Shown: piece by piece, positions 7,029-29,405 of the stretch | Numbering within the stretch: position 1 is the stretch's first letter | Layout: each line of letters begins with the position of its first letter | Source of the DNA: Paracoccus fistulariae | GTDB lineage: Bacteria > Pseudomonadota > Alphaproteobacteria > Rhodobacterales > Rhodobacteraceae | DNA length: 64,000 bases | Assembly (NCBI RefSeq): GCF_028553785.1 | Contig: NZ_CP067136.1 | Location: forward strand, 620,001-684,000 | Reading direction: 5' to 3' | Position numbers and translations under genes: made by a program | Notes under the pieces: model-generated | The model's database searches: none | Seen by the model: the letters and a program-made list of their open reading frames with translations, nothing else | What the model was told of the DNA's origin: nothing

Positions 7029-9194
7029 TCAGGAGGCCAGCAGCGCCCGTTCCCGCGCCTCGGCAAGCGCGGTTCTTCGATCCGTGGCGCCCAGCTTGCG
7101 ATAGATATTGCGCAGGTGAAACTTCACCGTTGGCAGGCTCAATTCCATCTCTCGCGCGATATCCTTGTTCGAGCATCCCTCGGACAACAGCAGCAGCGTG
7201 CGCCACTCCTGACGCGACAGCGGCCCGCTGCCAACCGCCTGCAGGGCACCGCGGCGCAGGTTGCGGGGCAGGGGGGCGTTACGCATCTCGCCCTGCATGA
7301 TCTGCGGATCGTCCAGCAAGGGCATCAGAAAGCCACGCTCTTCCATCAGCGGGGCGGCCGTATTGCGGTCAGCACAGCGGGCCAGAAGACGCAGCAGCGC
7401 GGTTCGGGCGGGCTTCACGCGCCCCTGACGACGCTCGGCCCAGACCTGCCAGACCGCCAGACAAAGCTGCTGACGCGGCGTGACCGATGCGTTCTTTTCG
7501 ATGGCGCGAAGACGCAGCAGCAGATCAGGATGGCGGGGTGTCTCGAATGTCTGCTGGCGCAGCCATAGCAAGGCCTGTGCGACATCCTCGCCATCGCGCA
7601 GATCGGCAAGGTTTTCGCCCGATGCCTGCATCCAGTTGCGCCCGATCCGCAGGGCCATGTCTTCCAGCCGCAACCGGGCCTCGCGCCAGCGTCTTGCGCT
7701 TTGCAGCGTGGCGATTTCGCGCTGCTCGATCAGCACCTGAAAGCGCCGCGTGCGCCAGGCCGGTACTTTCCAGCCGTCGATATAGGCCATGGCCGCAGGC
7801 ACGCCGCGCAATTGCAGCAGGGCTTCGGCCCCATAGGCCAGCGCCATGGTCGCGATCGACGGCCATAATTCACCATAGAGGAAGGTCTCAAAGGCTGTTT
7901 CGGCGAAATCCACCATGGGTTGCGGATCGCCGGTTTCATAGGCGGCGATGGCGCGCAGCAGCGCAATGAAGCCGTGATCCTGGCTGCTGGCGAAAGGCAC
8001 CTTGGCCAACGACGCCCCGGCCGCCTCAAGATGCGGCTGCGCCTGTCCCGCTGCGCTGCAATGCAAGGCAATCACCGTGCGATGCAGATGGATGAAAAAG
8101 GACAGGTAATGCGCGCCTGCAGCCTTGTAATGGCGAATGGCGCGGCGCGCGGCATCGTCAGCCTCGCCATAGCGGGCGGCGCGGATATGCAGCTCCAGCA
8201 CGGCATTATAGACCGCCCCGCGCATCAATTGCCGTTCCGGCGGAATGCGCGACAGCAATGCGGCGCCTTCGTCCAGAAAGCGCTGACGACTGACGTCGCT
8301 GCGATAGATCGCCAGCATGATGCGGCAAAAGCGCAAAGCCAGCGGCACGCTATCGGGGTTCTTCAGCGGCCTGCCCAGATCGATCAGCGCACCACCCGCG
8401 GCATTGGCCAGGATCACGCTGGCGCGTTGCGTATCGCCGCTTTTCGCTGCCATGAAGAATTCGAGGCCGACGACCTCGGGGTCAGAAGCGTCACGAAAGG
8501 CGTCACGCAACCGGGCGGCTGCGTCGAAGCCATGCAGATGGCCATAAAGATGTCCGCCAGCTTCGTGAAACGCATCTAAGGCGCGTCGGTGCTGCCCCTG
8601 GGCCAGATGGCCCAGGATCAGATCTGTGGGCGTGGCGGCGGCAGTCATATCGCCGGACCATGCGCGACCAGCGCGAGTCAGCCACGCCGCCAATCTTTGG
8701 TTGTGAACGAACCATTTGCCGCTGCGATAGCTGGCCAGAGGGACAAGTTGCAGCAGCGCGGCACGTTCCGCCGCGCGGATATGCGCATCATCTGTTCCCT
8801 CTTCGTTATGCGCCAACCGCAGCAACATGTGCCGAAGTGGTGGTTCCATGGCAGAGAGCAAGCCATGCAGCAGCGTAACCGGATCCTTCTCGTCTTCAAG
8901 GCAGGCCGACAGCGCGGGCCACCCGGCAGATTGCGCGTAATGCGGATCCTCGAAGGCGCTGTTGAACAACTCCAGATTGGTGATCAACTGCATGTCGGGA
9001 CTGGCTGCGACATGCAGGGTGATCCCCTTGTCACCTAGCACCTGGCGCAAAGCCTCCCGCCCGCAACCGGGCAGCGCTATCACCGCGATGTCGCGCACGC
9101 CATCCAGATGCAGCCGATCCGCCCAGGCAGCAAGTTCCTCAATGTTCGGCATATTATCCGTGATCTCTGAGGGCGCTGATGATGAACCCGGCAT
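7029..9194 (-). CDS. LuxR-family transcriptional regulator with long MalT-like N-terminal region
   Basis: The 721-residue protein ends in a clear GerE/LuxR helix-turn-helix (LSRQEWRTLLLLSEGCSNKD, then MELSLPTVKFHLRNIYRKLG) over roughly the last 60 residues. The preceding 600 residues are alanine- and leucine-rich helical repeats resembling the TPR-like arm of MalT-type regulators. At the N-terminus the string ALPGCGREAL looks like a decayed P-loop, without the GK[ST] needed for nucleotide binding, so ATP control is doubtful. A second possible start (MPNIEELAAW) is at 9152. It probably controls the dpp/hyuA/DUF917 operon transcribed in the same direction just downstream. Confidence 0.88.
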   Translation of the reverse strand: MPGSSSAPSEITDNMPNIEELAAWADRLHLDGVRDIAVIALPGCGREALRQVLGDKGITLHVAASPDMQLITNLELFNSAFEDPHYAQSAGWPALSACLEDEKDPVTLLHGLLSAMEPPLRHMLLRLAHNEEGTDDAHIRAAERAALLQLVPLASYRSGKWFVHNQRLAAWLTRAGRAWSGDMTAAATPTDLILGHLAQGQHRRALDAFHEAGGHLYGHLHGFDAAARLRDAFRDASDPEVVGLEFFMAAKSGDTQRASVILANAAGGALIDLGRPLKNPDSVPLALRFCRIMLAIYRSDVSRQRFLDEGAALLSRIPPERQLMRGAVYNAVLELHIRAARYGEADDAARRAIRHYKAAGAHYLSFFIHLHRTVIALHCSAAGQAQPHLEAAGASLAKVPFASSQDHGFIALLRAIAAYETGDPQPMVDFAETAFETFLYGELWPSIATMALAYGAEALLQLRGVPAAMAYIDGWKVPAWRTRRFQVLIEQREIATLQSARRWREARLRLEDMALRIGRNWMQASGENLADLRDGEDVAQALLWLRQQTFETPRHPDLLLRLRAIEKNASVTPRQQLCLAVWQVWAERRQGRVKPARTALLRLLARCADRNTAAPLMEERGFLMPLLDDPQIMQGEMRNAPLPRNLRRGALQAVGSGPLSRQEWRTLLLLSEGCSNKDIAREMELSLPTVKFHLRNIYRKLGATDRRTALAEARERALLAS

Positions 9195-9763: not shown

Positions 9764-9791
9764 TTGACAAATGTCAGGATCAATATATTTT
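9764..9791 (+). promoter_or_regulatory. Candidate sigma-70 promoter of the polyol ABC/kinase operon
   Basis: A perfect -35 hexamer TTGACA (9764-9769) is followed after 16 bp by TATTTT (9786-9791), a 4/6 match to the -10 box. It sits about 70 bp upstream of the first operon gene at 9860. Palindromes overlap the -35 and lie just after the -10. Confidence 0.55.
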
Positions 9792-9859: not shown

Positions 9860-11341
9860 ATGCAGCAACCACTGCTCGTGGCTGATGGCTTCAAGAAGGC
9901 GTTCAACGGCGTGCCTGCGCTTAAGGAAGGCCGGTTTACGCTGGAGCCTGGCTCTGTTCATGCACTCTGCGGTGGTAATGGTGCGGGCAAATCGACCTTT
10001 CTGAAGATACTTATGGGGATTCATCAGCGCGATGCCGGGACGCTGACACGGAACGGTTCCAAGGTGGTGTTTCACGAACCTTCCGAAGCGCTGGCCAATG
10101 GCATTTCGATCATCGAACAGGAACTCAGCCCCGTGCCCGCCATGACAGTGGCGGAGAACATCTATCTGGGGCGCGAGCCGGTCGGGTTTCTGGGCCTTGT
10201 CGATTTCCGCAAGATGAACGCCGATGCCCAGAAGCTTCTGGACGGTTTCCAGTTCGGCATTCGCGCCGACACGATGATGATGGATCTGACCGTGGCGCAG
10301 ACACAGCTGGTCGAGATCGCCAAGGCGCTGAGTTATGACGCCGAGGTCATCATCATGGACGAACCCACCTCTGCCCTGGGCGAGGCAGAGGCCGATCAGC
10401 TGTTCGAGGCGGTGCGCACGCTCAAGGCCCGTGGCAAGGGCGTGATCTATGTCAGCCACCGCCTGTCCGAGATTTTTACCATCTGCGACCGCTACACGGT
10501 GTTCCGTGACGGGAGCTTTGTCGAAGATGGCGCGCTGGCCGATATCGACAAGGACCGCCTGATCAACCTGATCGTCGGCCGCCCCCTGGCCGAGGAATTC
10601 GTCAAGGAAAACACGCCCGGCACTGAAGAGGTGCTGCGCGTCAGCAACCTCTCTGCCGATCATGGCGTGGCCGAGGTCGATTTCTCGGTCCGGCGCGGTG
10701 AGATTCTGGCGCTTTACGGGCTGCTGGGTTCGGGGCGTTCGGAAATCTTCGACCGGCTGTTTGGCCTGTCATCGGCAACCGCCGGTGAGATCCTGATCGA
10801 CGGCAAAGCGGTGCGGATCAGCACGCCAAGGCAGGCGATCGATGCGGGTCTGGCCTATGTGACCGAAGACCGGAAGGGATCGGGCCTCGTGCTGACCGGC
10901 GATGTGCGCGAGAACCTGTGCCTTGCCACGCTGGACGCCATGTCGCCGCATGGGGTGATGAACACCCGCGCCGAAGCGGAAGCCTCGGAGCAGATGATTT
11001 CGACGCTGAACATCAAGACGGCGACGGACCGGCTGGGCGTGTCGAACCTGTCGGGGGGCAACCAGCAAAAGGTGGTTCTGGGCAAATGGTTCCTGACCAA
11101 GCCCCGCATTCTGCTTCTGGATGAACCTACGCGTGGTGTCGACGTGGGCGCCAAGCGCGAAATCTATCGCGTCATGTCCGACTTCGCCCGCGGCGGTGGC
11201 ACGATCATCATGGTGTCATCGGAAACGGATGAAGTGCTGGGCATGGCGGACCGGGCCGTGGTCATGCGCGACGGCCGCGTGGCCGGAGAACTGAACAGGG
11301 CTGAAATGTCGGCCGAAAGATTGCTGCATCTCGCCGTCTGA
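9860..11341 (+). CDS. Sugar/polyol ABC transporter ATP-binding protein (RbsA/XylG-like)
   Basis: The 493-residue protein has two tandem ATP-binding domains of the carbohydrate uptake type 2 family. Domain 1 has Walker A GGNGAGKST near residue 37 and Walker B VIIMDEPTSALG near 170. Domain 2 has the usual degenerate loop GLLGSGRSE near residue 290 and LSGGNQQKV near 398, then LLLDEPTRGVDVGAK. This is the standard layout for ribose, xylose and polyol importers. It is the first gene of the operon, with AGGGGAGGG upstream as ribosome site. It energises import with the permease and binding protein that follow. Confidence 0.95.
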   Translation: MQQPLLVADGFKKAFNGVPALKEGRFTLEPGSVHALCGGNGAGKSTFLKILMGIHQRDAGTLTRNGSKVVFHEPSEALANGISIIEQELSPVPAMTVAENIYLGREPVGFLGLVDFRKMNADAQKLLDGFQFGIRADTMMMDLTVAQTQLVEIAKALSYDAEVIIMDEPTSALGEAEADQLFEAVRTLKARGKGVIYVSHRLSEIFTICDRYTVFRDGSFVEDGALADIDKDRLINLIVGRPLAEEFVKENTPGTEEVLRVSNLSADHGVAEVDFSVRRGEILALYGLLGSGRSEIFDRLFGLSSATAGEILIDGKAVRISTPRQAIDAGLAYVTEDRKGSGLVLTGDVRENLCLATLDAMSPHGVMNTRAEAEASEQMISTLNIKTATDRLGVSNLSGGNQQKVVLGKWFLTKPRILLLDEPTRGVDVGAKREIYRVMSDFARGGGTIIMVSSETDEVLGMADRAVVMRDGRVAGELNRAEMSAERLLHLAV

Positions 11342-11411: not shown

Positions 11412-12437
11412 GTGGAAGAGCAGATGAAGGCCAAGGTTCCTGCGGGGGCCGGCACCGAGCAAAAGCCGACGCTGACTGACCGGGTTGGCCCGATTGCGCA
11501 GCGCTATGGCATTCTGATTGCACTGGTCGTGCTTTGCGTGGCTCTGGCGCTGGTCAGCGAGAATTTCCTGACCTCGCGCAACATCATCAACGTGCTCCGG
11601 CAGACCTCGATCAACGGGATCCTTGCCATTGGCATGACCTTCGTGATCCTGACCCGGGGAATCGATCTGTCCGTCGGGTCGGTGGTGGCGCTGACCGGTG
11701 TGGTCGCGGCCAGTTTCGCGACCACCTCCTCATCGGGGTTCATCCCCGGCGCGCCTTATATCGCCATCGTGCCGCTGATCATCGGTGTGCTGACCGGCAT
11801 GGCCGTCGGGGCGATCTCGGGTGTGGCGGTCGCGCATTACGCGGTGCCTGCCTTTGTGGCGACGCTGGGGATGCTGTCGGCAGCCCGTGGCCTGACCCTG
11901 ATCTATTCCGACGGCCGCCCGATTCCGGCGCTGACCGATGGCTTCCGCTGGATCGGGACAGGCGACATCGCGGGCATTCCGATGCCAATCATCCTGTTCG
12001 GGCTGGTCTTTGCCGTATCGCATTTCGTTCTGACCCGCACGCGCTTCGGGCGTCATGTCTATGCGGCAGGGGGTAACCCGCATGCGACCAAGGTGTCCGG
12101 CATCTCGGTCAACCGCATCCGGTTTTCGGTCTATGTCATCTCGGGCGCGCTTGCCGGGATTGCGGGCATGATCCTTGCGGCGCGGACGGGCTCGGCGCTG
12201 CCGCAGGCCGGCATCGCCTATGAGCTTGACGCCATTGCGGCGGTCGTCATCGGGGGCACCAGCCTTGCGGGTGGGATCGGCCGCGTCAGTGGCACGGTGA
12301 TCGGCGCCCTGCTGATCGGCGTCATGAATAACGGCCTCGATCTGCTGGGGGTGGAATCCTATTATCAGCAGGTCATCAAGGGCGCGCTGATCGTCGCGGC
12401 GGTCATGCTTGACCGATCCCGCAAGACCGAAGCCTGA
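11412..12437 (+). CDS. Sugar/polyol ABC transporter permease (RbsC-like)
   Basis: The 341-residue membrane protein has about eight to ten hydrophobic segments and the RbsC-family motifs GMTFVILTRGIDLSVGS and AAGGNPHATKVSGI, the latter being the ATPase-contact loop. I chose the GTG at 11412 because GGAGG at 11401-11405 lies 6 bp upstream; an ATG at 11424 is possible but further from it. It forms the channel together with the RbsA-like ATPase and the binding protein. The last coding part (GGTSLAGGIGRVSGT) matches family consensus closely, so the gene is intact. Confidence 0.94.
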   Translation: MEEQMKAKVPAGAGTEQKPTLTDRVGPIAQRYGILIALVVLCVALALVSENFLTSRNIINVLRQTSINGILAIGMTFVILTRGIDLSVGSVVALTGVVAASFATTSSSGFIPGAPYIAIVPLIIGVLTGMAVGAISGVAVAHYAVPAFVATLGMLSAARGLTLIYSDGRPIPALTDGFRWIGTGDIAGIPMPIILFGLVFAVSHFVLTRTRFGRHVYAAGGNPHATKVSGISVNRIRFSVYVISGALAGIAGMILAARTGSALPQAGIAYELDAIAAVVIGGTSLAGGIGRVSGTVIGALLIGVMNNGLDLLGVESYYQQVIKGALIVAAVMLDRSRKTEA

Positions 12438-12545: not shown

Positions 12546-13544
12546 ATGACGTTCAAGACTTTCGCAACCACTGCCAGTGCATTGGCGCTGACCGTATCGC
12601 TGGCAACCGGCGCAACTGCCCAGGAAGAGCCGCTGAAAATCGGTGCAGCCGTCTATGGCCTGAATGCCGAGTTCATGCAGCTTTGGGCCGCCGCCGCCGA
12701 ACAGCACCCCGCCGTGACCTCGGGGCTTGTCGATCTGACGGTTTTTGACGGCCGCTATGATGCGCTGGTCCAGCAGGATCAGTTCGAGACGATGATCACC
12801 CAGGGCTATGACGCGATCGTCTTTGTGCCGATCGATGTCGAGGCCGGGGCGACCGCCGTGCAACTGGCCGCCGATGCGGATATTCCCGTCGTGGGGTCCA
12901 ATACCAGGGTCAACAGCGACCTGCTGAAGGCCTATGTGGGGTCGGACGATGTGCAGGCAGGGTATATGGAGGCCAAGTCTGTTCTTGATGACATGAATTG
13001 CGAAGGCGCCGTGGTCATTATCGAAGGCCCCATCGGTCAGTCCGCCCAGATCCAGCGCGGCGAAGGCAACGAAAAGGCACTGGCGGAATGCGACGGCGTC
13101 GAGGTGCTTGAGAAACAGACCGCCAACTGGTCCCGCGCCGAGGCGCAAAGCCTGATGGAAAACTGGCTGACCTCGCATGGTGGCGACATCAAGGGCGTGA
13201 TCGCGCAGAATGACGAAATGGCACTGGGTGCGATCGAGGCCATCAAGGCCGCTGGCATGAACGTGGATGATTTTGCCATTGCCGGTGTCGATGGCGTGAC
13301 CGATGCGCTGATGGCCGTCAAGGCAGGCAGCATGGCCTCGATCCTGCAGGATGGCGCGGCACAGGCGCAGGGCGCCATCGACGTGGCGGTCAAGGCGGTG
13401 AAGCCCGACTATGAGCCGATGTCCGAGATCTGGAAAAAATATCCCGACATGGCGTGGGAGAACGGCGAAAACGCTGAATACAGCGTGCCCTGGACCCAGG
13501 TGACGCTGGATAATGTCGACGCGCTGCTGGCAGAGCGTCAGTGA
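12546..13544 (+). CDS. Periplasmic sugar/polyol-binding protein (RbsB-like)
   Basis: The 332-residue protein has a signal peptide (MTFKTFATTASALALTVS, cleavage probably after ATA before QEE). The mature protein is a type 1 periplasmic binding fold: YDAIVFVPIDVEAGATAVQL, IPVVGSNTRVNSDLL, VIAQNDEMALGAIEAI and AIAGVDGVTDAL are typical family landmarks. A strong ribosome site (GAGGAGG) precedes the ATG. It captures the solute for the RbsA/RbsC-like transporter. The hairpin immediately after the gene may protect this transcript, as binding proteins are needed in excess. Solute identity is not deducible; the downstream genes point to a polyol or ketose. Confidence 0.94.
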   Translation: MTFKTFATTASALALTVSLATGATAQEEPLKIGAAVYGLNAEFMQLWAAAAEQHPAVTSGLVDLTVFDGRYDALVQQDQFETMITQGYDAIVFVPIDVEAGATAVQLAADADIPVVGSNTRVNSDLLKAYVGSDDVQAGYMEAKSVLDDMNCEGAVVIIEGPIGQSAQIQRGEGNEKALAECDGVEVLEKQTANWSRAEAQSLMENWLTSHGGDIKGVIAQNDEMALGAIEAIKAAGMNVDDFAIAGVDGVTDALMAVKAGSMASILQDGAAQAQGAIDVAVKAVKPDYEPMSEIWKKYPDMAWENGENAEYSVPWTQVTLDNVDALLAERQ

Positions 13545-13651: not shown

Positions 13652-14410
13652 ATGGCCGGATCCTATGACTTTTCACTGGCGGGCAAGACCGCCATCGTTA
13701 CCGGCGCGGCCTCTGGCATCGGAGCCGCCATCGCCGAGGCCTTTGTCGCATGCGGCGCGCGGGTCGCGCTTTTGGACATGAACATCGACGCGGTTCAGGC
13801 CAGGGCCGATGGGCTGGGCGGTGATGCGCGGGCCTTTGCCTGCAACGTGACCGATGCCGATGATATCGCGGCGGCGGTGTCGGCGGTGACGGCGGCCTTT
13901 GACGGCATCGACATTCTGGTGAACTCTGCCGGGATCGTGGATCTTGCCCCCGCCGAAGATCTGTCGGCTGCGGCATGGTCGCGCACCATCGATGTGAACC
14001 TGACCGGCAGTTTCCTGATGGCGCAGGCCGTGGGCCGGGCGATGATCGCTGCGGGCAATGGCGGGCGCATCATCAACCTTGCCAGCCAGGCCGGATCGGT
14101 CGCCATCGACGGCCATGTCGCCTATTGCGCGTCCAAATTCGGCATTATCGGCGTGACAAAGACCCTGGCGCTGGAATGGGGCCATCATGGCATTACGGTC
14201 AATTCGATCTCTCCCACGGTGGTGCTGACCGAACTGGGCAAGAAGGCATGGGATGGCCCCAAGGGCGATGCCATGAAGGCGCAGATTCCCACGGGCCGCT
14301 TTGCCGAACCCGAGGAAATCGCGGCATCAGCAGTCTTTCTCGCCTCCGGTTCGGCGGCGATGATCAACGGGGCCGACCTTCTGGTCGATGGCGGATATAC
14401 GGTAAAATGA
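13652..14410 (+). CDS. Short-chain dehydrogenase/reductase, polyol (tetritol/glycerol) dehydrogenase-like
   Basis: The 252-residue NAD(P)-dependent SDR has the Rossmann motif TGAASGIG, the NSAG motif near residue 91, and the catalytic Ser145, Tyr158 and Lys162 (YCASK). The C-terminal region TVVLTELGKKAWDGPKG and GADLLVDGGYTVK resembles the group containing D-threitol dehydrogenase and GolD-type glycerol dehydrogenases, from memory of those families. The stop overlaps the start of the kinase gene (ATGA), so oxidation and phosphorylation are coupled at translation. Likely role: oxidise the imported polyol to a ketose such as erythrulose or dihydroxyacetone. The exact substrate is inference. Confidence 0.88.
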   Translation: MAGSYDFSLAGKTAIVTGAASGIGAAIAEAFVACGARVALLDMNIDAVQARADGLGGDARAFACNVTDADDIAAAVSAVTAAFDGIDILVNSAGIVDLAPAEDLSAAAWSRTIDVNLTGSFLMAQAVGRAMIAAGNGGRIINLASQAGSVAIDGHVAYCASKFGIIGVTKTLALEWGHHGITVNSISPTVVLTELGKKAWDGPKGDAMKAQIPTGRFAEPEEIAASAVFLASGSAAMINGADLLVDGGYTVK

Positions 14411-16191
14411 CAGAGGATCGGAAAACGGTGCCCTCGGCGGGCAAGGAAATGCAGCGTTTCATCAATGACCCGGATGATCTGGTGGATGAAACCATCGCGG
14501 GTTTCGTCAAGGCCCACCCTGATCTTGTACGGAAGGACCCGATGAATGCCCGCGTGGTGACATCGCGCTTTGCCCCGCAAAAGGACAAGGTCGGGATCGT
14601 CACCGGCGGCGGATCCGGCCATGAACCCGCCTTTGTCGGCTATGTCGGCCGCAATATGGTGGATGCCGTTGCGGTGGGGGAGCTGTTTTCCTCGCCCACG
14701 GCCAAAAGCTTTGCCGATGCGATCCGTGCCGCGGATGGCGGCGCGGGGGTCGCGGTGCTTTATGGCAATTACGCGGGCGACAACATGAACGTCCGCATGG
14801 CCGCAGAGATGGTTGCCGCCGAGGGCATCGAGGTATCGACCGTGGTGGCCAATGACGATGTCTGTTCCGCGCCGTTGTCGGATCGCGAAAAGCGGCGCGG
14901 CGTGGCCGGCGAAATCTTCATGTGGAAGATCGGCGGCGCAAAGGCCGCACTTGGCGGTTCGCTGGAACAGGTGATCTCGGTGTCGCAAAAGGCCGTGGAC
15001 GCGACCCGTTCGGTGGGTGTGGGCCTTGGACCATGCACCCTGCCGGCCGTGGGACATCCGAATTTCCAGATCGAGCCCGGCACCATGGAGGTCGGCATCG
15101 GCCATCATGGCGAACCCGGCGCGCGGGTCGAGGCGCTGAAGACCGCCGATGACGTGGCCGACGACATGCTGAAGATCGTGCTGGACGATCACGACCTGCC
15201 CGAGGGCACCGAAGTTGCCGTGCTGGTATCGGGGCTGGGTGCCACGCCGGTGAATGAGCTTTACGTCCTCTACGACCGGCTTGAAACCGGGCTGGAGGCG
15301 GCAGGGCTGCGGGTATATCGTGCCTTCGTCGGCAATTATTTCACCTCGCTGGAAATGATCGGGGCGACCCTGTCGGTGATGGCGCTGGATGACGAGTTGA
15401 AGACGCTGCTTGACGTCGAATGCGTCTCGCCCGGCATGGCAGTAGCCGGTGCGCCGACCGTGCCGGTGGGCCAGATCATCCGGCGCGAGCGCAAGGCCGC
15501 CACCGGGTCTGCATCGGCCAATGTGCCGCGCGCGCCCGAACCGACCAGAACGCCGATCCTGCCACTGTCCGAGGCATCCGGCATGGTCGAGGAAATTGCC
15601 GCCGTTATCGTCGCCAACAAGGCGCATCTGTCGGAAATCGACGGCCTGATCGGCGATGGCGATCATGGGATCAACATGTCCAAGGGTTTTGGCCGCGCCG
15701 CCGAACGCATCGCCGGACAGGTCATGCCGCTTGATCAGGCGCTGGAACAGCTGTCCGATGTGTTGATGTCGGAAATCGGCGGCTCCATGGGACCGCTTTA
15801 CGGGTTCATGTTCCACAACATGGCGCAGAGCATTGCCGGGCGTGATGCCATCGATGTGGACGGGTTCGCGGTCATGATGCAGGCGGGGCTTGCCGGGGTG
15901 CGCGCCACCGGATCGGCACAGGTCGGAGACAAGACCCTGATCGACTGTTTCGTGCCTGCGGTCGATGCCTTCGAGGCCGCAAAGGACGACGGCTTTGCCA
16001 CCGCGCTGACCGCAATGGGAAAGGCTGCCGAGGCAGGCCGCGACAGCACCGTGGACATGGTCGCCAAGCTGGGCAGGGCCGCGCGTCTGGGCGAACGGTC
16101 GCGCGGGGTGCCGGATGCCGGGGCCACATCCTGCAGCCTGATCCTGAATGAACTGGCTGCAGCCGCTGCGCGGCGGCTGACGGCAACATGA
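14407..16191 (+). CDS. DhaK-DhaL fusion kinase (dihydroxyacetone/erythrulose kinase-like)
   Basis: The 594-residue protein joins a substrate-binding DhaK domain (about residues 10-340) to an ATP-binding DhaL domain (about 385-590). The DhaK part keeps GGGSGHEP (His72), GDNMN (Asp125) and the covalent substrate histidine in GHHGEPG (His234). The DhaL part keeps the Mg-ATP aspartates (Asp412, Asp417, Asp419 of IDGLIGDGDHG). This is the ATP-dependent single-chain form, not the PTS-dependent three-subunit form. Start ATG 14407 overlaps the SDR stop. Family members phosphorylate dihydroxyacetone, glyceraldehyde or D/L-erythrulose. The preceding dehydrogenase makes a ketose from a polyol the most likely substrate. 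Confidence 0.93.
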   Translation: MTEDRKTVPSAGKEMQRFINDPDDLVDETIAGFVKAHPDLVRKDPMNARVVTSRFAPQKDKVGIVTGGGSGHEPAFVGYVGRNMVDAVAVGELFSSPTAKSFADAIRAADGGAGVAVLYGNYAGDNMNVRMAAEMVAAEGIEVSTVVANDDVCSAPLSDREKRRGVAGEIFMWKIGGAKAALGGSLEQVISVSQKAVDATRSVGVGLGPCTLPAVGHPNFQIEPGTMEVGIGHHGEPGARVEALKTADDVADDMLKIVLDDHDLPEGTEVAVLVSGLGATPVNELYVLYDRLETGLEAAGLRVYRAFVGNYFTSLEMIGATLSVMALDDELKTLLDVECVSPGMAVAGAPTVPVGQIIRRERKAATGSASANVPRAPEPTRTPILPLSEASGMVEEIAAVIVANKAHLSEIDGLIGDGDHGINMSKGFGRAAERIAGQVMPLDQALEQLSDVLMSEIGGSMGPLYGFMFHNMAQSIAGRDAIDVDGFAVMMQAGLAGVRATGSAQVGDKTLIDCFVPAVDAFEAAKDDGFATALTAMGKAAEAGRDSTVDMVAKLGRAARLGERSRGVPDAGATSCSLILNELAAAAARRLTAT

Positions 16192-16310: not shown

Positions 16311-16967
16311 ATGTCCAGCTTTACACGATCCGACCTGACCGACCTGTTCCGCGCCTTTGCCATGCGCATGGCCGCTGATCGGGCCCTGCTGGGGGAACTG
16401 GACGGCGAAATCGGCGATGCCGATCACGGCGTCGCCATGGCGGACGGGTTCGAAGCGGCCGCCCGCGCCCTGGCAGAAGCCGAGGACGCCGACCAGACGC
16501 TTGGAGACGGGTTCACCCTGGCAGCGCAGGTTCTGCTGAACAAGGTCGGCGCAACGACCGGGCCGCTTTATTCCAGCGCCCTGTTGCGGGCCGCAAAAAC
16601 CTTTGGCACCGAGAGGCAGATTTCCTTTGACCGCTTGCCCGAAATGATTTCAGCGATGTTCGAAGGCATCGAAACACGCGGCCATGGAAAACCGGGTGAC
16701 AAGACCATGCTGGATGCGTGGTGGCCTGCGGCCCATGTCGTCACGCACGATGACACGGATGCCACCGACACGGTCACGCGCCTGCGCAATGCCGCGCAGG
16801 CCGCCGCCAAGGGGGCCGAGGATACCCGCGCCATGATGGCCTCACGGGGGCGGGCTGCCCGGCTTGGTCCCCGCAGCATCGGCCATCTGGATCCCGGCGC
16901 GGTCTCTGCCGCCGCGCTGCTGGAAGTCTTGGCCGATTGGGCCACCCGTCACGAAGGGGCCTCCTGA
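16311..16967 (+). CDS. Stand-alone DhaL-type ATP-binding kinase subunit
   Basis: The 218-residue protein is a complete DhaL domain. Asp31, Asp36 and Asp38 in LDGEIGDADHG form the metal-ATP site, and TGPLYSSALLRAA matches the family core. It has no DhaK partner of its own as a separate gene: the preceding enzyme already contains its own DhaL, and the next gene is a regulator carrying a DhaK domain. Its stop TGA shares a base with the ATG of that regulator (TGATG). The simplest inference is that this DhaL pairs with the DhaK domain of the SorC fusion, either for phosphotransfer or for regulation, as DhaL does with DhaR in E. coli. Confidence 0.92.
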   Translation: MSSFTRSDLTDLFRAFAMRMAADRALLGELDGEIGDADHGVAMADGFEAAARALAEAEDADQTLGDGFTLAAQVLLNKVGATTGPLYSSALLRAAKTFGTERQISFDRLPEMISAMFEGIETRGHGKPGDKTMLDAWWPAAHVVTHDDTDATDTVTRLRNAAQAAAKGAEDTRAMMASRGRAARLGPRSIGHLDPGAVSAAALLEVLADWATRHEGAS

Positions 16968-19021
16968 TGGGGGCGCGCGGTCGCACACGCGATGCCGCTG
17001 CCCCGTCGGACAAGCGCCCTCCTACCCGATTTGGTGAAGACACGCTGCTATGGGCGGCCTGGCTTTACTATGAAGAGGGTCTGACGCAGGCGGAGATCGC
17101 GACGCGGATGGGGGTGTCCCGGCCTTCGGTCAATGCCTATCTTGCGGATGCCCGCACGCGTGACATCGTCTCGATTGAAATCGACCCGGCCCGGTTTCGC
17201 GCGCTGACGCTGGCGCAGGCCATGCAGGATCATTTCGGTCTGAACGACTGCCTGGTCATCCCGTCCGAGGGCAATGACAGCCCGCTGATCGACCGGCTGG
17301 GCGCGGCGGCGGCACAGCTGCTGGGGCGTCTGACCAAATCGGGTGAAACCATCTCCGTGACCTGGGGGCGGACCATGCTGGCCATGGCAACCCGGGTGAG
17401 CAACGGGGCGCTGCGCGACGTCCGCGTCGTCCAGGCCACGGGCAGCACCACGGCCAAGATCCCGTGGACCCCCGAAGCCTGCGCCACGCGTCTGGCCGAA
17501 AATCTGGGGGCACGCTGCATTCCGCTGTCTGCCCCGGCAATCGTATCGGCGCCCCAGGTGCGCGACATGCTGCTGCGCGAACCGGTCCTTGCCGAACAGA
17601 TGGCTGTGCTGGCACAGGCGGACCGCATCGTTTTCGGGGTTTCCTCGCTCAGGCCGGAAAGCACGATCCATACCAGCGGCTTTTTCGATGCAGTCTCAAT
17701 TCGCGATCATTACCACGCGGCGGTGGGCAGCATCGCGGGTCGGATGATTTCGGCCACCGGCGCCCGGGTGGATGGCCCGCTGGAAGAGCGCACCATCGGC
17801 ATGGATCTTGATACCATCCGCAAGGTGCCCGAACGCTTGGCCGTTGCGGGCGGCATGGACAAGGTGCAGGCCATTCTGGCGGCGCTGCGCGGCGGATATG
17901 TCACCGCGCTTGTGACCGATGCCGATACGGCCCGCGCGATCCTGAACTCTGAAGGCTATGAGGATCGTCCGATGCGCGGGCCCGAACGCCCGACCGAGGC
18001 ATTGCCCGAACGCACCCGGGTCAAGAAATTCCTCAACCGGCCCCGCGATGCCGTTGACGAGGCCATCGCAGGCGCGCTTCTGGCGCATGAAGACAGGCTG
18101 GTCGCGGTCGATGGCGTGCCTCGCGCGATCCGCGCCCGGCAGGCGCCCCGCCCGGGCAAGGTCGGGCTGGTGATCGGCGGCGGATCCGGCCATGAACCGG
18201 GATTTCTGGGTTATGTCGGACAGGGCATGGCCGATGCCGTCGCGGTGGGCAATGTCTTTGCCGCGCCGCCGCCGGATCCCATCCTGGCCGCCACCATCGC
18301 CGCCGATGGAGGCGCAGGCGTGCTGCATATCTTCGGCAACTTCTCGGGCGATCTCATGAATTTCGAGATGGCCGCAGAAATGGCCGAAGCCAAGGGCATT
18401 CCCGTCCGCACCGTCGTGACCACGGATGATATCGCCTCGGCCCCGCTGGACGCACGCAGTGCAAGGCGCGGGGTCGCGGGCAATGTCTTTGTCTTCAAGA
18501 TCGCGGGCGCGGCCTGCAACCGGATGCTGTCCCTGGACAGATGCGCCGACCTGGCGTCGCGCGCGGCCGAGCGTTGCATGACCATGGGCGTTGCACTTGA
18601 ACCCGGCGCGTCTATCGACACCGGCCGCCCCAGTTTCAGTCTGGGCCCCGACGCCATGGAAATCGGTGTCGGTGTGCACGGCGAACCGGGCGTCACGCGA
18701 ACCGAGGTGAAGTCCGCCGATGAAACCGCCGACCTGATCGTTGACCGCATATTGGACGAAATCGACCTGGCCAATGGCACCGAAGTCGCCTTGCTGGTCA
18801 ATTCCCTGGGCAGCACACCGCAGATGGAACTGTATATCCTGAACAGAAGGCTCAGACGGCGGCTGCACGCACACGACATTTCCGTACATGTTACGCTTCT
18901 TGGACATTACTATACGTCACTCGACATGGTGGGCGTCTCGGTCACGCTGATGCAGCTTGATCCCGAACTGAAGGAATTGCTGGACGATCCCTGCGACAGC
19001 CCGGCATGGACCCAGATCTGA
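16967..19021 (+). CDS. SorC-family transcription regulator fused to a full DhaK domain
   Basis: The 684-residue protein starts at ATG 16967 (TGATG with the DhaL stop). Residues about 25-65 form a helix-turn-helix (EGLTQAEIATRMGVSRPSVN). About 70-335 is the SorC/DeoR sugar-binding domain, ending TALVTDADTARAIL. Residues about 350-684 are a DhaK domain, starting RVKKFLNRPRDAVDEAIAG. The DhaK part keeps GGGSGHEP (His409), SGDLMNFE (Asp462) and the covalent histidine in GVHGEPG (His571), so it should still bind a ketose and may be a competent kinase half. It is the last gene of the operon and probably its own repressor or activator through the TGTCA palindromes. Ketose sensing through DhaK is inference. 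Confidence 0.92.
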   Translation: MGARGRTRDAAAPSDKRPPTRFGEDTLLWAAWLYYEEGLTQAEIATRMGVSRPSVNAYLADARTRDIVSIEIDPARFRALTLAQAMQDHFGLNDCLVIPSEGNDSPLIDRLGAAAAQLLGRLTKSGETISVTWGRTMLAMATRVSNGALRDVRVVQATGSTTAKIPWTPEACATRLAENLGARCIPLSAPAIVSAPQVRDMLLREPVLAEQMAVLAQADRIVFGVSSLRPESTIHTSGFFDAVSIRDHYHAAVGSIAGRMISATGARVDGPLEERTIGMDLDTIRKVPERLAVAGGMDKVQAILAALRGGYVTALVTDADTARAILNSEGYEDRPMRGPERPTEALPERTRVKKFLNRPRDAVDEAIAGALLAHEDRLVAVDGVPRAIRARQAPRPGKVGLVIGGGSGHEPGFLGYVGQGMADAVAVGNVFAAPPPDPILAATIAADGGAGVLHIFGNFSGDLMNFEMAAEMAEAKGIPVRTVVTTDDIASAPLDARSARRGVAGNVFVFKIAGAACNRMLSLDRCADLASRAAERCMTMGVALEPGASIDTGRPSFSLGPDAMEIGVGVHGEPGVTRTEVKSADETADLIVDRILDEIDLANGTEVALLVNSLGSTPQMELYILNRRLRRRLHAHDISVHVTLLGHYYTSLDMVGVSVTLMQLDPELKELLDDPCDSPAWTQI

Positions 19022-19139
19022 ATCCTGTGTCTGGCTGGCGGTATAAACTTGATGAATTTGCCACCTTGGACTTGTCTCGCGAAAGTGCCGGGTTCTTGAG
19101 AACATGAGAGCGATCAAGGAGACGGGCAATGACGCACAC

Positions 19140-19166
19140 TGGACCTGCGCCGGTTCTGTTCCGGTC
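19140..19166 (+). repeat. Left inverted repeat of the IS3-family element
   Basis: The 27 bp starting TGGACCTGCGCCGG match the reverse complement of 21714-21740 with three mismatches. Confidence 0.8.
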
Positions 19167-19200
19167 TTCTGAGAGCGATGCTCTTGAAAGGAGACTGGAT

Positions 19201-19485
19201 ATGACAGCGATACACAGCGATGCATTCAAGCAGGATGCGGTTTGTATTGCGCTCACCAGCGGTCTGATACGGCGTCAGGTTGCGTCCGATCTGGAGATCG
19301 GGCTTTCGACGCTCGGGAAGTGGATCCGGGCGATTTCCGATGAGGCGAAGGTTCCCGAACGCGATGCCGCTCTGCTGCGCGAGAATGAACGGCTGCGGAA
19401 GGAGAACCGGATCCTGAAGGATTTGAGCCGGATCAAGGAAACAGTCCGTGGAACTGTTTCCCCGGCGAATGTAGGGAAGTCTTAA
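19201..19485 (+). pseudogene. IS3-family orfA, disrupted at its 3' end
   Basis: The frame encodes an HTH protein (MTAIHSDAFKQDAVCIA, then RRQVASDLEIGLSTLGKWI) followed by the leucine-zipper stretch ALLRENERLRKENRILK. It then leaves consensus, running DLSRIKETVRGTVSPANVG before an early TAA. The true OrfA end (EVLKKAAQFFAAQKP) is intact in another frame immediately downstream (to 19523). A short insertion containing a hairpin (19437-19461) has shifted the frame. Confidence 0.8.
19437..19461. repeat. Palindromic insertion inside IS3 orfA
   Basis: GGAAACAGTCC (19437-19447) pairs with GGAACTGTTTCC (19450-19461) with one bulged base and a 2-base loop. It lies in the extra roughly 45-50 bp that separates consensus OrfA codons on each side. 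It may be a small mobile palindromic unit; no second copy was noticed in this window. Confidence 0.5.
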
Positions 19486-20226
19486 AAAAGGCAGCTCAGT
19501 TCTTCGCGGCTCAAAAGCCATGAGGTTTCATCTCATTGCCAACTATCGCGGGGACCTGCCTCGCAGTCGCCTGTGCCGCTTGATGGGCGTAACGGATCGC
19601 GGTCTGCGGGCATGGAGGCGCCGGCCGCCATCGCAGCGTCAGCGTCGCGACATGCTGATCCTTGCCGATATCCGAGAGCAACACCGGCTAAGCCTGGGCA
19701 GCTATGGCAGGCCGCGCATGACCGAGGAACTGAACAAGTTGGGCCTGCGTGTCGGCCGCGTTCGTCGGAAAAATGGCATCCGGGTTCTGCGCAGCCGCAA
19801 GTTCGAGCGCACCACTGACAGCGATCACAGCTTCACCATCGTGCCGAACCTCCCGCAGCAGGATTTTACGGCGAGCGCCCCGAACCAGACGTGGGTCGGC
19901 GAGATTACTATGTCTGGACGCGGGAGGGCTGGGTTTACCTTGCCGTGATCATCGACCTCTATTCACGGCGCGTGATTGGCTGGGCGATCAACAGCCGCAT
20001 GAAGCAGGATCTGGCGATCAGGGCGCTGAACATGGCGATCGCCCTGCGCAGGCCGCCGCCTGGCTGCATTCATCACAGCGACCGCAGATCGCAATATTGC
20101 GCCCACGACGATCAGAAGCTGCTGCGTCAGCACGGCTTCAAGGTGTCGATGAGCGGCAAAGGCAATTGCTGTGATCGTTCGGCTGTCGAGAGCTTTTTCA
20201 AATCATTGAAGGCACAGCTGGTCTGG

Positions 20227-20234
20227 CGGCGGGA
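20227..20234. repeat. Target-site duplication, left copy
   Basis: The octamer CGGCGGGA directly precedes the IS256-type element and is repeated exactly at 21568-21575. Confidence 0.9.
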
Positions 20235-21567
20235 GGGAGTGTCTGAAACTCTGTGTATCTGATGTGGCCCATGCGGTTTTCAGATACGTTCAGGCGTCGA
20301 AGCGCCCTGCGAACATTATGGCCAGCTGATTGCGGGCCGCAACCCATTCCCGGACCGCGCGGCCGCCCTTTTCGAAGTTGCGGATGGCGAGGAAGATCAG
20401 CTTCGTTGCGGCCTCCTCGGTTGGGAACGAGCCCTTGGTCTTCAGCGTTTTCCGCAGCACGCGGTTCAGCGATTCCACCGCATTCGTGGTGTAGATGATC
20501 TTCCGGATCGCCGCGCTGAAGGCGTAGAACGGGGTCACTTCCGCCCATGCCCGGCGCCAGGCCGGGGCGATGGATGGGTATTTCCCGGCCCATTTCTCCT
20601 CGAAGGCACCCAGTTGGCGGGCGGCCTGCTCAGCGGTGGGGGCCTCGTAAATCGGGCGCAGGTCGGCCGCCACGGCCTTGCGGTCCTTCCAGCTGCAGAA
20701 GTTCATCGAATGCCGGATCAGGTGAACGATGCAGGTCTGGACCGTGGTCTCGGGGAAGGCCGCAGTGATGGCCTCGGGGAAGCCCTTCAGCCCGTCCACG
20801 ACCGCGATCAGGATGTCCTGAACGCCCCGGTTGCGCAGCTCATTCATCACCGACAGCCAGAACTTCGCGCCCTCGTTGTCGGCGATCCAGAGCCCCAGAA
20901 CCTCGCGATCCCCTTCCCGGGTGACGCCCAAGGCGATGTAAACGGCCTTGTTTTTGACCATCCGGCTGTCAGCATCGCGGATCTTCACGCGCAGGGCATC
21001 GAAAATGACGATCGGATACATCCGGTCCAGCGCCCGGTGCTGCCACTCGCGGACCTCGTCCAGCACGGCATCCGTGACGCGGCTGATCAGGTCGGGCGAA
21101 ACCCGCAGGCCGTAAAGATCTTCCAGGTGGGCCTGGATGTCCCGAACCGACAGCCCAGCAGCGTAAAGCCCGATGATCTTGTCATCCACCCCATCGATCC
21201 GGGTCTGGCCCTTCTTCACCAGCTCGGGCTCGAAGCTGCCCTCCCGGTCTCGCGGCACCGAAAGCGGCACCTCGCCGTCCGAGCCCTTCACCCTCTTCGT
21301 CGCGATCCCGTTCCGGCGGTTGGTCTGCTCAGCCGGCGGCTCCGCACCAGCCTCATAGCCCAGATGTGCCGTCAACTCGGCCCCGAGCATCCGCTCCATC
21401 AGCCGGATCTTCAGTTCCTTCATCAGCCCGGCGTCGCCCAGCAGATCCTCAGGCCGCTTGCAGCCTTTCAGCAGCTCGTCCAGCAGTTCGTTCGAAATCG
21501 TCATGGTCCTTGCTCCTCTCAGGAAGCATGGACCCAATCAGCCATCCACAGAAGACCGGACACTCTC
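20235..21567 (-). mobile_element. Complete IS256-family insertion sequence (1,333 bp)
   Basis: The element is bounded by imperfect inverted repeats of about 23 bp. The left end reads GGGAGTGTCTGAAACTCTGTG and the right end, reverse-complemented, reads GAGAGTGTCCGGTCTTCTGTG. An exact 8-bp duplication flanks it, as expected for IS256. It carries one intact transposase gene on the minus strand and sits inside IS3 orfB. The intact ends, duplication and reading frame indicate a recent insertion that could still be mobile. Confidence 0.93.
20290..21504 (-). CDS. IS256-family transposase
   Basis: The 404-residue mutator-type transposase starts MTISNELLDELLKG; an upstream in-frame start at 21537 would add 11 residues that are not family-like. 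The DDE residues are visible: the first Asp in IVIFDALRVKIRD, the second in VVDGLKGFPEAI, and the Glu in YTTNAVESLNR. Length and motifs are those of a full active enzyme. The gene lies inside the 1.33-kb element and reads opposite to the interrupted IS3 transposase. Confidence 0.95.
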   Translation of the reverse strand: MTISNELLDELLKGCKRPEDLLGDAGLMKELKIRLMERMLGAELTAHLGYEAGAEPPAEQTNRRNGIATKRVKGSDGEVPLSVPRDREGSFEPELVKKGQTRIDGVDDKIIGLYAAGLSVRDIQAHLEDLYGLRVSPDLISRVTDAVLDEVREWQHRALDRMYPIVIFDALRVKIRDADSRMVKNKAVYIALGVTREGDREVLGLWIADNEGAKFWLSVMNELRNRGVQDILIAVVDGLKGFPEAITAAFPETTVQTCIVHLIRHSMNFCSWKDRKAVAADLRPIYEAPTAEQAARQLGAFEEKWAGKYPSIAPAWRRAWAEVTPFYAFSAAIRKIIYTTNAVESLNRVLRKTLKTKGSFPTEEAATKLIFLAIRNFEKGGRAVREWVAARNQLAIMFAGRFDA

Positions 21568-21575
21568 CGGCGGGA
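21568..21575. repeat. Target-site duplication, right copy
   Basis: The octamer CGGCGGGA follows the IS256-type element and matches 20227-20234. Confidence 0.9.
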
Positions 21576-21713
21576 TTGGCAAACTCGTCGCGCGGTTGAG
21601 GTCGCCCTCTTCGAATACATAAACGGCTTCTACAACCCCCACCGCAAACACTCAGCACTCGGCTGGAAATCACCCGTGGCCTTCGAACACACGGCCGCCT
21701 AACATGAGCATCC

Positions 21714-27902: not shown

Positions 27903-29405
27903 TCACTGCTTCAGTTCGATATTTTCCAGTCGGATCATGCCGTCCGAATATGCGGTGAAGCCCGCCACCTTGTCCGAGACGCCGTAAAGCCAGGCCTCGT
28001 TGTAAAGGTAGAACAGCGGCTGTTCCTCGTTCAGGATCACATTGGCCTCGTGATAAAGTGCCTTGCGCTTTTCCACATCGCTCTCGGCGCGGGCTTCGGC
28101 CAGGATCCTGTCGATCTCGGCGTTGGAATAGCCGCCATCGTTGAACCCGCCGCCGGTCGAGACAAAGCCGGTGATATTGCCGTCAGGGTCGATCCGTCCC
28201 GACCAGCCGACCTGGCTGGCCTGGAAGTCGCCCGATTTCTGATCGGTCAGCATGGTCGCGAATTCCTTCGCGCTCAGGCTGATATTGATCCCGGCCTCGG
28301 CCGCCATCGCCTGGATCATCTGAACGACCTGCTGGCTTTCCGGCCGGTTGGGAAACTGCAGCTCCAACTCAAGCGGGGTCGAGACACCTGCCTCGGCAAT
28401 CAGAGCCTTTGCCTTTTCGATGTCGCGGGCCGGTACCGGGAAGGCCGGGTCGAAATAGGGGCTTGCGGTCGATACGAACTGGCTGGCCGGAGCGTTCAGC
28501 CCGGCAAAGACGACCTGGTTGATCGCCGCGCGGTCGATGCTCAGCGACAGCGCATCGCGCAGGCGGGCGTCCTTGCCGAAGGGATTATCCGCTTTGGCGC
28601 CGTTCATGATGTTGAAGGTAATGCCCTGATAGCCCAACCCTTCCGCCTTGGCAAAGACGAGGTTCCCGGCATTTTCAACGGTTTGAGCATCCGTCGCGGC
28701 CAGACGGTTGATCAGATCCAGATCGCCCGATTGCAGATTGGCCAGTCTTACGGTGCTGTCGGGGATCGGCAGATAGGTCACGCGATCAATCTTGATCGCA
28801 TCGGCATTCCAATAATCGCCGAATTTCTCCAGCTCTATCTTGTCCTGAGCGACCCGGCTGACGAATTTGAATGGCCCCGAGCAGACCGGGTTCGCTGCGA
28901 CGTCGCTGTCAAAACTTGACGGAGACAGCATGATCCCCGCGCGGTCTGCAAGCTGCGCCAATAGCGGTGCATCCGGGGCAGAGAGGTTCAACCGGACATG
29001 TGTCGCATCCAGCACCTCGACCGATTCCACCGAACTCAATTCGGTCTTGCGTACGCTGTCATCCAGCGTCTTCGAACGCTCGATATTGGCCTTGACGGCC
29101 GCCGCATCGAAGGGGGTGCCATCATGAAACACGACGCCCTCGCGCAGCGTCATGTCAAGCGCCTTGCCGTCCTCGCTGAAGCTCCATTCCGTGGCAAGCT
29201 GCGGGATCAGCGACAAGTCCGCGCCCACATCGATCAGCTTGTCGCACAGCGCGGTAAAGACAATGCGGCCGACAAAGGTTCGACTGCGGTCAGGATCCAG
29301 CGCATCGGGATCGCTTTCCAGCCCGATTCGCAAGGTCTGCGCCTGTGCGGCAAGAGCCGAGCTGCTCAGCAACGCGGCAAGAAGGACGGTTTGAGTGAGT
29401 TTCAT
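27903..29405 (-). CDS. ABC transporter periplasmic solute-binding protein, DppA/OppA family
   Basis: The 500-residue protein belongs to family 5 extracellular solute-binding proteins. I chose ATG 29405, giving a clean signal peptide (MKLTQTVLLAALLSSSALAA with cleavage near AQA), over upstream in-frame codons that encode arginine-rich non-signal sequence. The start overlaps the stop of the OppF gene (ATGA). Landmarks are QLATEWSFSEDGKALDMTLR, VVFHDGTPFDAAAVK and SLSIDRAAINQVVF. It binds the imported peptide-like solute in the periplasm and hands it to the DppB/DppC-type permeases encoded next. Confidence 0.93.
   Translation of the reverse strand: MKLTQTVLLAALLSSSALAAQAQTLRIGLESDPDALDPDRSRTFVGRIVFTALCDKLIDVGADLSLIPQLATEWSFSEDGKALDMTLREGVVFHDGTPFDAAAVKANIERSKTLDDSVRKTELSSVESVEVLDATHVRLNLSAPDAPLLAQLADRAGIMLSPSSFDSDVAANPVCSGPFKFVSRVAQDKIELEKFGDYWNADAIKIDRVTYLPIPDSTVRLANLQSGDLDLINRLAATDAQTVENAGNLVFAKAEGLGYQGITFNIMNGAKADNPFGKDARLRDALSLSIDRAAINQVVFAGLNAPASQFVSTASPYFDPAFPVPARDIEKAKALIAEAGVSTPLELELQFPNRPESQQVVQMIQAMAAEAGINISLSAKEFATMLTDQKSGDFQASQVGWSGRIDPDGNITGFVSTGGGFNDGGYSNAEIDRILAEARAESDVEKRKALYHEANVILNEEQPLFYLYNEAWLYGVSDKVAGFTAYSDGMIRLENIELKQ

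Follow-up and report, generated by a model that had tools for sequence, protein, structure and literature searches.

Kinase subunits of the DhaK/DhaL type are known from several systems in which they act together with a transcription regulator. In Escherichia coli, DhaK and DhaL act with DhaR, the regulator of their own operon; DhaR is of the enhancer-binding type and the kinase is driven by the phosphotransferase system (PTS) through DhaM. In Lactococcus, DhaQ (structure 2iu4), a separate DhaK paralogue, is the ketose sensor for the transcription regulator DhaS. NadR, BirA, PutA and MocR/PdxR represent a further group of enzyme-regulator proteins, in which a catalytic or catalytic-fold domain is joined to a DNA-binding domain. 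Regulators of the SorC family (DeoR, LsrR, CggR) comprise a helix-turn-helix (HTH) and a Rossmann-like phosphosugar-binding domain and, according to the accessible part of PMC11229326, assemble as tetramers on paired half-operators. Here we describe a 64,000-nucleotide stretch of Paracoccus fistulariae (NZ_CP067136.1, positions 620,001 to 684,000; the window), in which a single gene encodes a SorC regulator fused to a DhaK domain.

The locus differs from each of these systems. The E. coli proteins are separate, whereas here SorC and DhaK form one chain and no DhaM is evident in the genome: its one EIIA-man match is a 145-residue frame far from the operon. In this genome the system does not look like a PTS-dependent DhaKLM kinase, and its phosphoryl donor is probably ATP. 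Unlike DhaQ, the fusion falls below the cut-off of the DhaQ model TIGR02362 (218.4 bits; cut-off 413.25) and has a DhaL of its own. The solved SorC-family chains with which it was compared (up to 346 residues) have no DhaK part. In contrast to NadR and its like, the fusion combines an effector domain with half of a two-subunit kinase, the other half being a separate conserved gene. It thus varies the known theme of DhaK/DhaL proteins that control their own operon, the additions being a conserved DhaL partner and a predicted operator.

Judging from sequence, we consider it about an even chance (a probability of roughly 0.5) that the fusion is a local SorC-type repressor of its own polyol/ketose operon and that its DhaK half (DhaK2), together with the product of the adjacent gene (DhaL2), is a working ketose kinase. 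Sensing and metabolism of a sugar are usually kept separate in cells; the matching DhaL half that adjoins the fusion in every checkable case suggests a switch that itself acts on the sugar whose catabolic genes are under its control. The architecture was already known. New are the DhaL2 adjacency, the separate DhaK2 and DhaL2 lineages, a promoter palindrome and a genome in which the fusion is the sole DhaK.

The SorC-DhaK protein

The fusion, its parts and its partner gene are located as follows.
16967..19021, plus strand: SorC-DhaK fusion, transcription regulator plus DhaK subunit, 684 aa (open reading frame (ORF), Pfam, relatives, AlphaFold2 model)
17042..17158, plus strand: N-terminal HTH, residues 26-64 (HTH-like Pfam matches, model helices, alignments to full-length LsrR, DeoR and SorC)
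17201..17947, plus strand: SorC effector domain, residues 79-327 (Sugar-bind, PF04198)
18020..19018, plus strand: DhaK domain, residues 352-684, with His409, Asp462 and His571
16311..16967, plus strand: DhaL2, conserved partner of the fusion, 218 aa (TIGR02365, adjacency, catalytic residues)

The reading frame starts with ATG and runs without interruption for 684 residues. The HTH-like Pfam matches all fall inside residues 30-74, followed by PF04198 at residues 79-327 (5.8e-59; 199.8 bits, cut-off 27) and Dak1 (PF02733) at residues 369-680 (1.5e-112). In the AlphaFold2 model (predicted local distance difference test score, 83.7; predicted template-modelling score, 0.73) helices span residues 26-35, 41-48 and 52-64 of the HTH. 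Assignment to the SorC family is indicated by the HTH preceding PF04198, by full-length alignments to LsrR, DeoR and SorC and by comparison of the model with the PDB. Within the SorC part, Trp133-Gly134-Arg135, Gly296 and Lys299 are invariant in 75 of 75 homologues.

His409, Asp462 and His571 of the DhaK domain align with positions 56, 109 and 218 of E. coli DhaK (chain 4lrx), which we take to be catalytic or contact residues, 218 being the covalent histidine. All three are invariant in two sets of homologues (28/28 and 75/75, both picked from the best 120 of 753 relatives), and their equivalents are kept in each of the 31 fusion DhaK domains taken from genome loci. On the curated DhaK model TIGR02363 the fusion reaches 360.6 bits, below the cut-off of 406.25; it is therefore not a curated DhaK equivalog, though fold and residues agree. 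The first-pass annotation of this DNA had described one chain with an HTH, a SorC sugar-binding domain and a full DhaK domain that keeps these three residues, and the description holds. A frameshift merging two genes, which it had named as the finding that would undo this view, was rejected: full-length relatives are numerous, and 14 of 390 genomes sampled in the order carry full-length fusions.

A protein search, proposed in the same annotation, retained 753 of 7,997 scored candidates. Of these relatives, the best 120, the window's own protein included, all combine PF04198 with PF02733. About two dozen of the 120 carry the RefSeq name 'bifunctional sugar-binding transcriptional regulator/dihydroxyacetone kinase subunit DhaK'; the window's protein has the same architecture and belongs with them, so that the earlier view of the fusion as an unknown architecture has to be given up. 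Full-length fusions occurred in one of 385 genomes sampled in the class (the window's own), in the 14 of the order, own genome included, and in five of 398 sampled in the phylum, all of them inside the class; three of the five also belong to the order sample. Genome G402, one of the 14, has a stop in the aligned stretch, yet its locus (L170) shows an uninterrupted fusion frame from position 7340 onwards. Among the named carriers are Paracoccus, Gemmobacter, Martelella, Aureimonas, Tropicimonas, Rhizobium, Labrys, Tianweitania and Brucella thiophenivorans, and a scan of genome contigs gave at least 80 loci.

The RefSeq name is an annotation alone. A literature search, with subscription journals mostly outside its reach, returned no title on the function of a SorC-DhaK protein and no function, partner or operator for the named family; the term SorC does not occur in the accessible part of PMC4777399, on the dha regulon. 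By the earlier reckoning the fusion would not be new if many genomes carried it with an assigned function. Many genomes do carry it, but the search found no such function. The fusion is thus real, spread over many alphaproteobacterial genera, annotated by name and, as far as that search shows, functionally unexplored.

The DhaL2 partner and the predicted operon promoter

The last base of DhaL2 (16967) is the first base of the fusion's ATG, confirming the overlap that had been reported. The DhaL gene is, however, not the orphan that it had been called. It adjoins the fusion in all 32 testable loci (upstream in 21, downstream in 11), so that the partner gene expected of a DhaK kinase subunit is present in each. 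These loci are sequence-distinct and have usable flanks (the window, L009-L022, L039, L073, L075, L158-L162, L164-L170, L198 and L199); a duplicate of L015 (L163) and two loci cut by contig ends (L008, L023) were left out. In two Tianweitania loci (L021, L022), fusion and DhaL2 form a unit of their own and the kinase operon lies on the opposite strand. DhaL2 scores above the cut-off of TIGR02365 (174.3 and 138.3 bits) and has the Asp triad Asp31/36/38, presumably the Mg-binding/nucleotide site; triad and His39 are kept in 30/30 copies and also in two added loci (32 copies).

A second complete kinase, the fused DhaK1-DhaL1, is encoded just upstream in the same gene row (14404 to 16191) and was absent from the first-pass annotation. 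A separate DhaK1-DhaL1 pair is found in 31 of the 32 fusion loci. Trees were built by a quick method, with the Shimodaira-Hasegawa-like approximate likelihood ratio test (SH-aLRT) alone as support, and both contain some long branches elsewhere. All 31 fusion DhaK rows fall in a single clade (SH-aLRT 96; 99 for the 34 rows that include three unfused relatives), and DhaL2 forms a matching one (33 rows, 96); both sit apart from DhaK1 and DhaL1. We also considered that DhaL2 might be a chance copy of the DhaL in the neighbouring kinase and rejected this, given its separate clade and its travelling with the fusion. A third DhaK-DhaL protein of the window's genome (L152, G000:C1:1474988-1475914) lies on a long branch in both trees.

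The two DhaK lineages also differ next to their conserved residues. Directly before the covalent His, DhaK1 has His (30/30) and the fusion Val or Ile (31/31); directly after Asp462, DhaK1 has Asn (30/30) and the fusion Val or Leu (28/31). The His and Asn pattern of DhaK1, unlike fusion DhaK and most of 67 other DhaK domains, is possibly a marker of tetrulose kinases.

DhaL2 and the fusion end a gene row that begins with a predicted promoter and runs in this order.
9764..9791, plus strand: predicted operon promoter, TTGACA-16-TATTTT, 10/12 consensus positions, overlapped by the operator
9766..9775, no strand: predicted operator GACAAATGTC, the palindrome shared by operon promoters of fusion loci and the only perfect site before the operon
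9860..11341, plus strand: ATP-binding cassette (ABC) ATPase, RbsA-like, first gene of the operon (PF00005)
11412..12437, plus strand: ABC sugar permease, ribose type (PF02653)
12546..13544, plus strand: periplasmic sugar-binding protein of the ABC transporter (PF13407)
13652..14410, plus strand: short-chain dehydrogenase/reductase acting on polyols, GolD/DthD family (NF005309, 375.9 bits; cut-off 286)
14404..16191, plus strand: DhaK1-DhaL1 fused ketose kinase, 595 aa, of a lineage apart from the fusion's DhaK (NF011049, 606.8 bits; cut-off 492; trees)

The palindrome GACAwwTGTC recurs in promoters ahead of the operon at fusion loci. A perfect GACANNTGTC lies at the operon promoter, that is, within about 130 bases before the first gene as judged from estimated start codons, in 19 of 30 fusion loci, and these 30 loci hold three other perfect sites (at 28995 of the window and two in L167). 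At the promoter of L023, a fusion cut by a contig end, two perfect sites are present; L198 has one at its promoter, and L199 has no perfect site. At the corresponding promoters of nine fusion-free comparison loci no perfect site was found, with two elsewhere, and among shuffled 260-base upstream regions the share with a perfect site was 3.5% at most and usually 0-1%. Of 32 fusion loci, 14 have a best pair of sites, 21 or 22 bp apart, that lies at the promoter and scores at least 14/16; one (L167) has such a pair elsewhere, and none of 16 control loci attains 14/16 (best, 13). Degenerate further operator copies in the window start at 9790 and 9811, 21 bp apart. Such paired sites would fit a tetramer on two half-operators, by analogy with DeoR and CggR as described in the accessible part of PMC11229326.

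The motif follows the promoter where loci have been rebuilt: it stands before DhaK1 in L013 and L039, before the dehydrogenase in L165, and between fusion and transporter in L199. Its overlap with the -35 box suggests repression. Elsewhere in the window's genome there are six GACAWWTGTC sites, five inside ORFs and the sixth within a longer palindrome before a gene that by eye resembles a TetR regulator. A standalone SorC relative (L147:8396), 45% identical to the SorC part, carries a perfect GACATTTGTC where its own gene starts, and no DhaK was found in its 19-kb stretch.

A proposed repressor with a kinase half, and the competing explanations

Architecture, intact catalytic residues, DhaL2 pairing and the recurrent promoter palindrome are direct readings of the sequence. 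From them we infer kinase activity, the ligand, recognition of the palindrome by the fusion, repression and not activation, and a path from the state of DhaK to the DNA. The SorC part, probably as a tetramer, would occupy the predicted GACAwwTGTC sites over the -35 box and block transcription of the genes for the ABC importer, the GolD/DthD dehydrogenase and the DhaK1-DhaL1 kinase. Ketose made by the dehydrogenase would bind covalently at His571 and then be phosphorylated by DhaL2; occupancy and turnover would free the DNA, the signal most likely being a phosphoketose read by the phosphosugar-binding SorC domain. SorC effector domains bind phosphosugars, and CggR-DNA complexes fall apart with fructose bisphosphate and with dihydroxyacetone phosphate (accessible part of PMC11229326). 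A kinase half placed beside a phosphosugar reader suggests that the product of DhaK2-DhaL2 is the signal.

The case that the fused half can act as an enzyme is strongest at L199. Its genome (G1117, listed as 100% complete) has the fusion and DhaL2 without DhaK1, and Dak1 matches nothing there but the fusion, which in this genome is probably the enzyme. The catalytic residues of L199 are intact, the fusion stands opposite a different type of ABC transporter, and an extra TIM-type gene, one of two in the genome, lies beside DhaL2. The suggestion of the first-pass annotation that the protein is at once an enzyme half and a regulator is accordingly the reading best supported by the data at hand, mainly through G1117 and the DhaL2 residues kept in 32/32 copies. 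In P. fistulariae, another complete kinase in the operon means that the fused half need not carry metabolic flux. More tentatively, the factor could make its own inducer: the DhaK half and its private DhaL would phosphorylate incoming ketose and pass the phosphoketose to the SorC domain of the same protein, giving a switch that reports kinase flux (ketose and ATP together) and not the pool. The deep branch of L199/G1117 would then be an older bifunctional state, and the fused kinase would have become free to serve as a sensor once a second one was captured.

Several observations weigh against a repressor with a working kinase half. In 31 of 32 loci a complete kinase lies close by, so that flux does not require a second. 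Across 24 common loci, mean identity is 0.644 for DhaK2, 0.496 for DhaL2 and 0.613 for SorC, against 0.770 for DhaK1 and 0.661 for DhaL1; DhaK2 diverges faster than its counterpart in 269 and DhaL2 in 274 of 276 locus pairs, which would fit a sensor as well as an enzyme. Thr158 aligns with a lysine of DeoR, presumably its Schiff-base residue, so that no covalent adduct would be expected in the SorC pocket. A perfect promoter palindrome is lacking in 11 of the 30 fusion loci, among them L012, which is without an upstream flank; the regions upstream in L162 and L168 contain no palindrome even with one mismatch allowed. The window's own best 21-bp pair scores 12/16, a level also reached in controls (first 24 kb scanned). 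L010, L012, L013, L162 and L167-L169 have no single best pair at the promoter (with ties in L162 and L168, and L012 again lacking its upstream flank), and in L015 and L170 the promoter pair ties with a place elsewhere.

Part of this evidence would be explained equally if DhaK2 were a sensor only, binding ketose covalently and docking DhaL2 as an allosteric signal, with any phosphotransfer incidental: a DhaS-DhaQ of Lactococcus, or a DhaR with DhaK/DhaL of E. coli, in fused form. E. coli DhaK has been crystallised with DhaR (4lrx), DhaK2 evolves at about the rate of the SorC part, and the complete kinase next door would leave the fused half free for sensing. We regard this as possible though doubtful, as Asp462 and the Asp residues of DhaL2 are invariant and not obviously demanded by a binding-only role, no other DhaK was found in G1117, and the score on the DhaQ model is far below its cut-off. 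In 16 firmicute genomes no protein matched that model above the cut-off, and two proteins examined there score below it. It is unlikely that the two kinases simply serve different ketoses, such as D- and L-erythrulose, or erythrulose on one side and dihydroxyacetone on the other, the fusion being an economical encoding without crosstalk. The residue differences before the covalent His and after Asp462 may indeed mean different pockets, and unfused DhaK2-DhaL2 pairs occur in several gene settings; a fusion of convenience would, however, be expected to split again, and once L199 is set aside, the remaining 32 fusion rows group in a single clade (100/99) that contains no unfused row. The unfused basal branch may be ancestral or split, the tree being compatible with both.

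Least probable, and compatible with the other explanations, is that GACAwwTGTC is read by another regulator while the fusion controls other genes. Binding of the fusion to the site is a prediction, some fusion loci lack the site, and the standalone SorC relative at L147 has a perfect copy beside its own start. Against this, the site accompanies the fusion in rebuilt operons and beside a different transporter, a promoter site is absent from all nine fusion-free loci, five of which (L045, L058, L063, L068, L155) have a DhaK-DhaL group and another SorC gene in the stretch, and five of the six other sites in the window's genome are inside ORFs.

Unfused DhaK2-DhaL2 pairs turned up in six loci. At L153 the pair adjoins a separate SorC gene, and the same genome also carries the fusion operon L166; at L155 no other kinase pair lies in the stretch, and the pair is part of a GolD/DthD operon whose importer is of the same kind and whose SorC gene is different. 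For L154, L195, L196 and L197, no SorC gene was detected within the stretch. L199 and the unfused pairs are the basal branches of the DhaK2 clade, in an order that the tree leaves unsettled, and with L199 the tree needs one or two changes for the origin of the fusion; the count of two in the SorC-part tree arises because the contig of L023 ends before the DhaK part. The DhaK2-DhaL2-SorC group at L153:12058-15335 stands beside a fused RhaD-type aldolase/short-chain dehydrogenase and a xylose-isomerase-like TIM barrel, neighbours which indicate that the DhaK2 lineage may also serve another sugar pathway. At L195:10460-13082 the unfused pair has an unusual pathway neighbourhood, with a RuBisCO-like protein and an SBD_N/NBD_C gene.

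If the fused kinase is active and controls DNA binding, the preferred reading would describe a compact switch that reads the turnover of its own substrate. It would give a functional basis to a family annotated in many genomes and, as far as the literature search shows, uncharacterised, and could supply a sensor part based on a covalent ketose for synthetic biology. The conserved partner and the predicted operator make the idea testable at once.

Pathway and flanking genes

Among 30 fusion loci, the window counted, a GolD/DthD dehydrogenase is present in 25 and an RbsA-like ATPase in 24. The pairing of such a dehydrogenase with a DhaK-DhaL kinase would fit, by analogy, the Mycolicibacterium threitol route, which uses erythrulose and erythrulose-4-phosphate (accessible part of PMC12780249). 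The ketose would be a tetrulose such as erythrulose, or dihydroxyacetone. An isomerase step is missing from the window's operon, and of the one flanking ORF examined beside the fusion in each of L013 (Bestrophin-like) and L164 (no match), neither is an isomerase.

Upstream of the operon, the minus strand encodes a 721-residue protein with a LuxR-type HTH (7032-9194). Directly downstream of the fusion, 19129-21702 holds frames of an HTH_Tnp_1/rve-type transposase, into which a Mutator-type transposase gene on the other strand (20293-21537) appears by eye to have been inserted.

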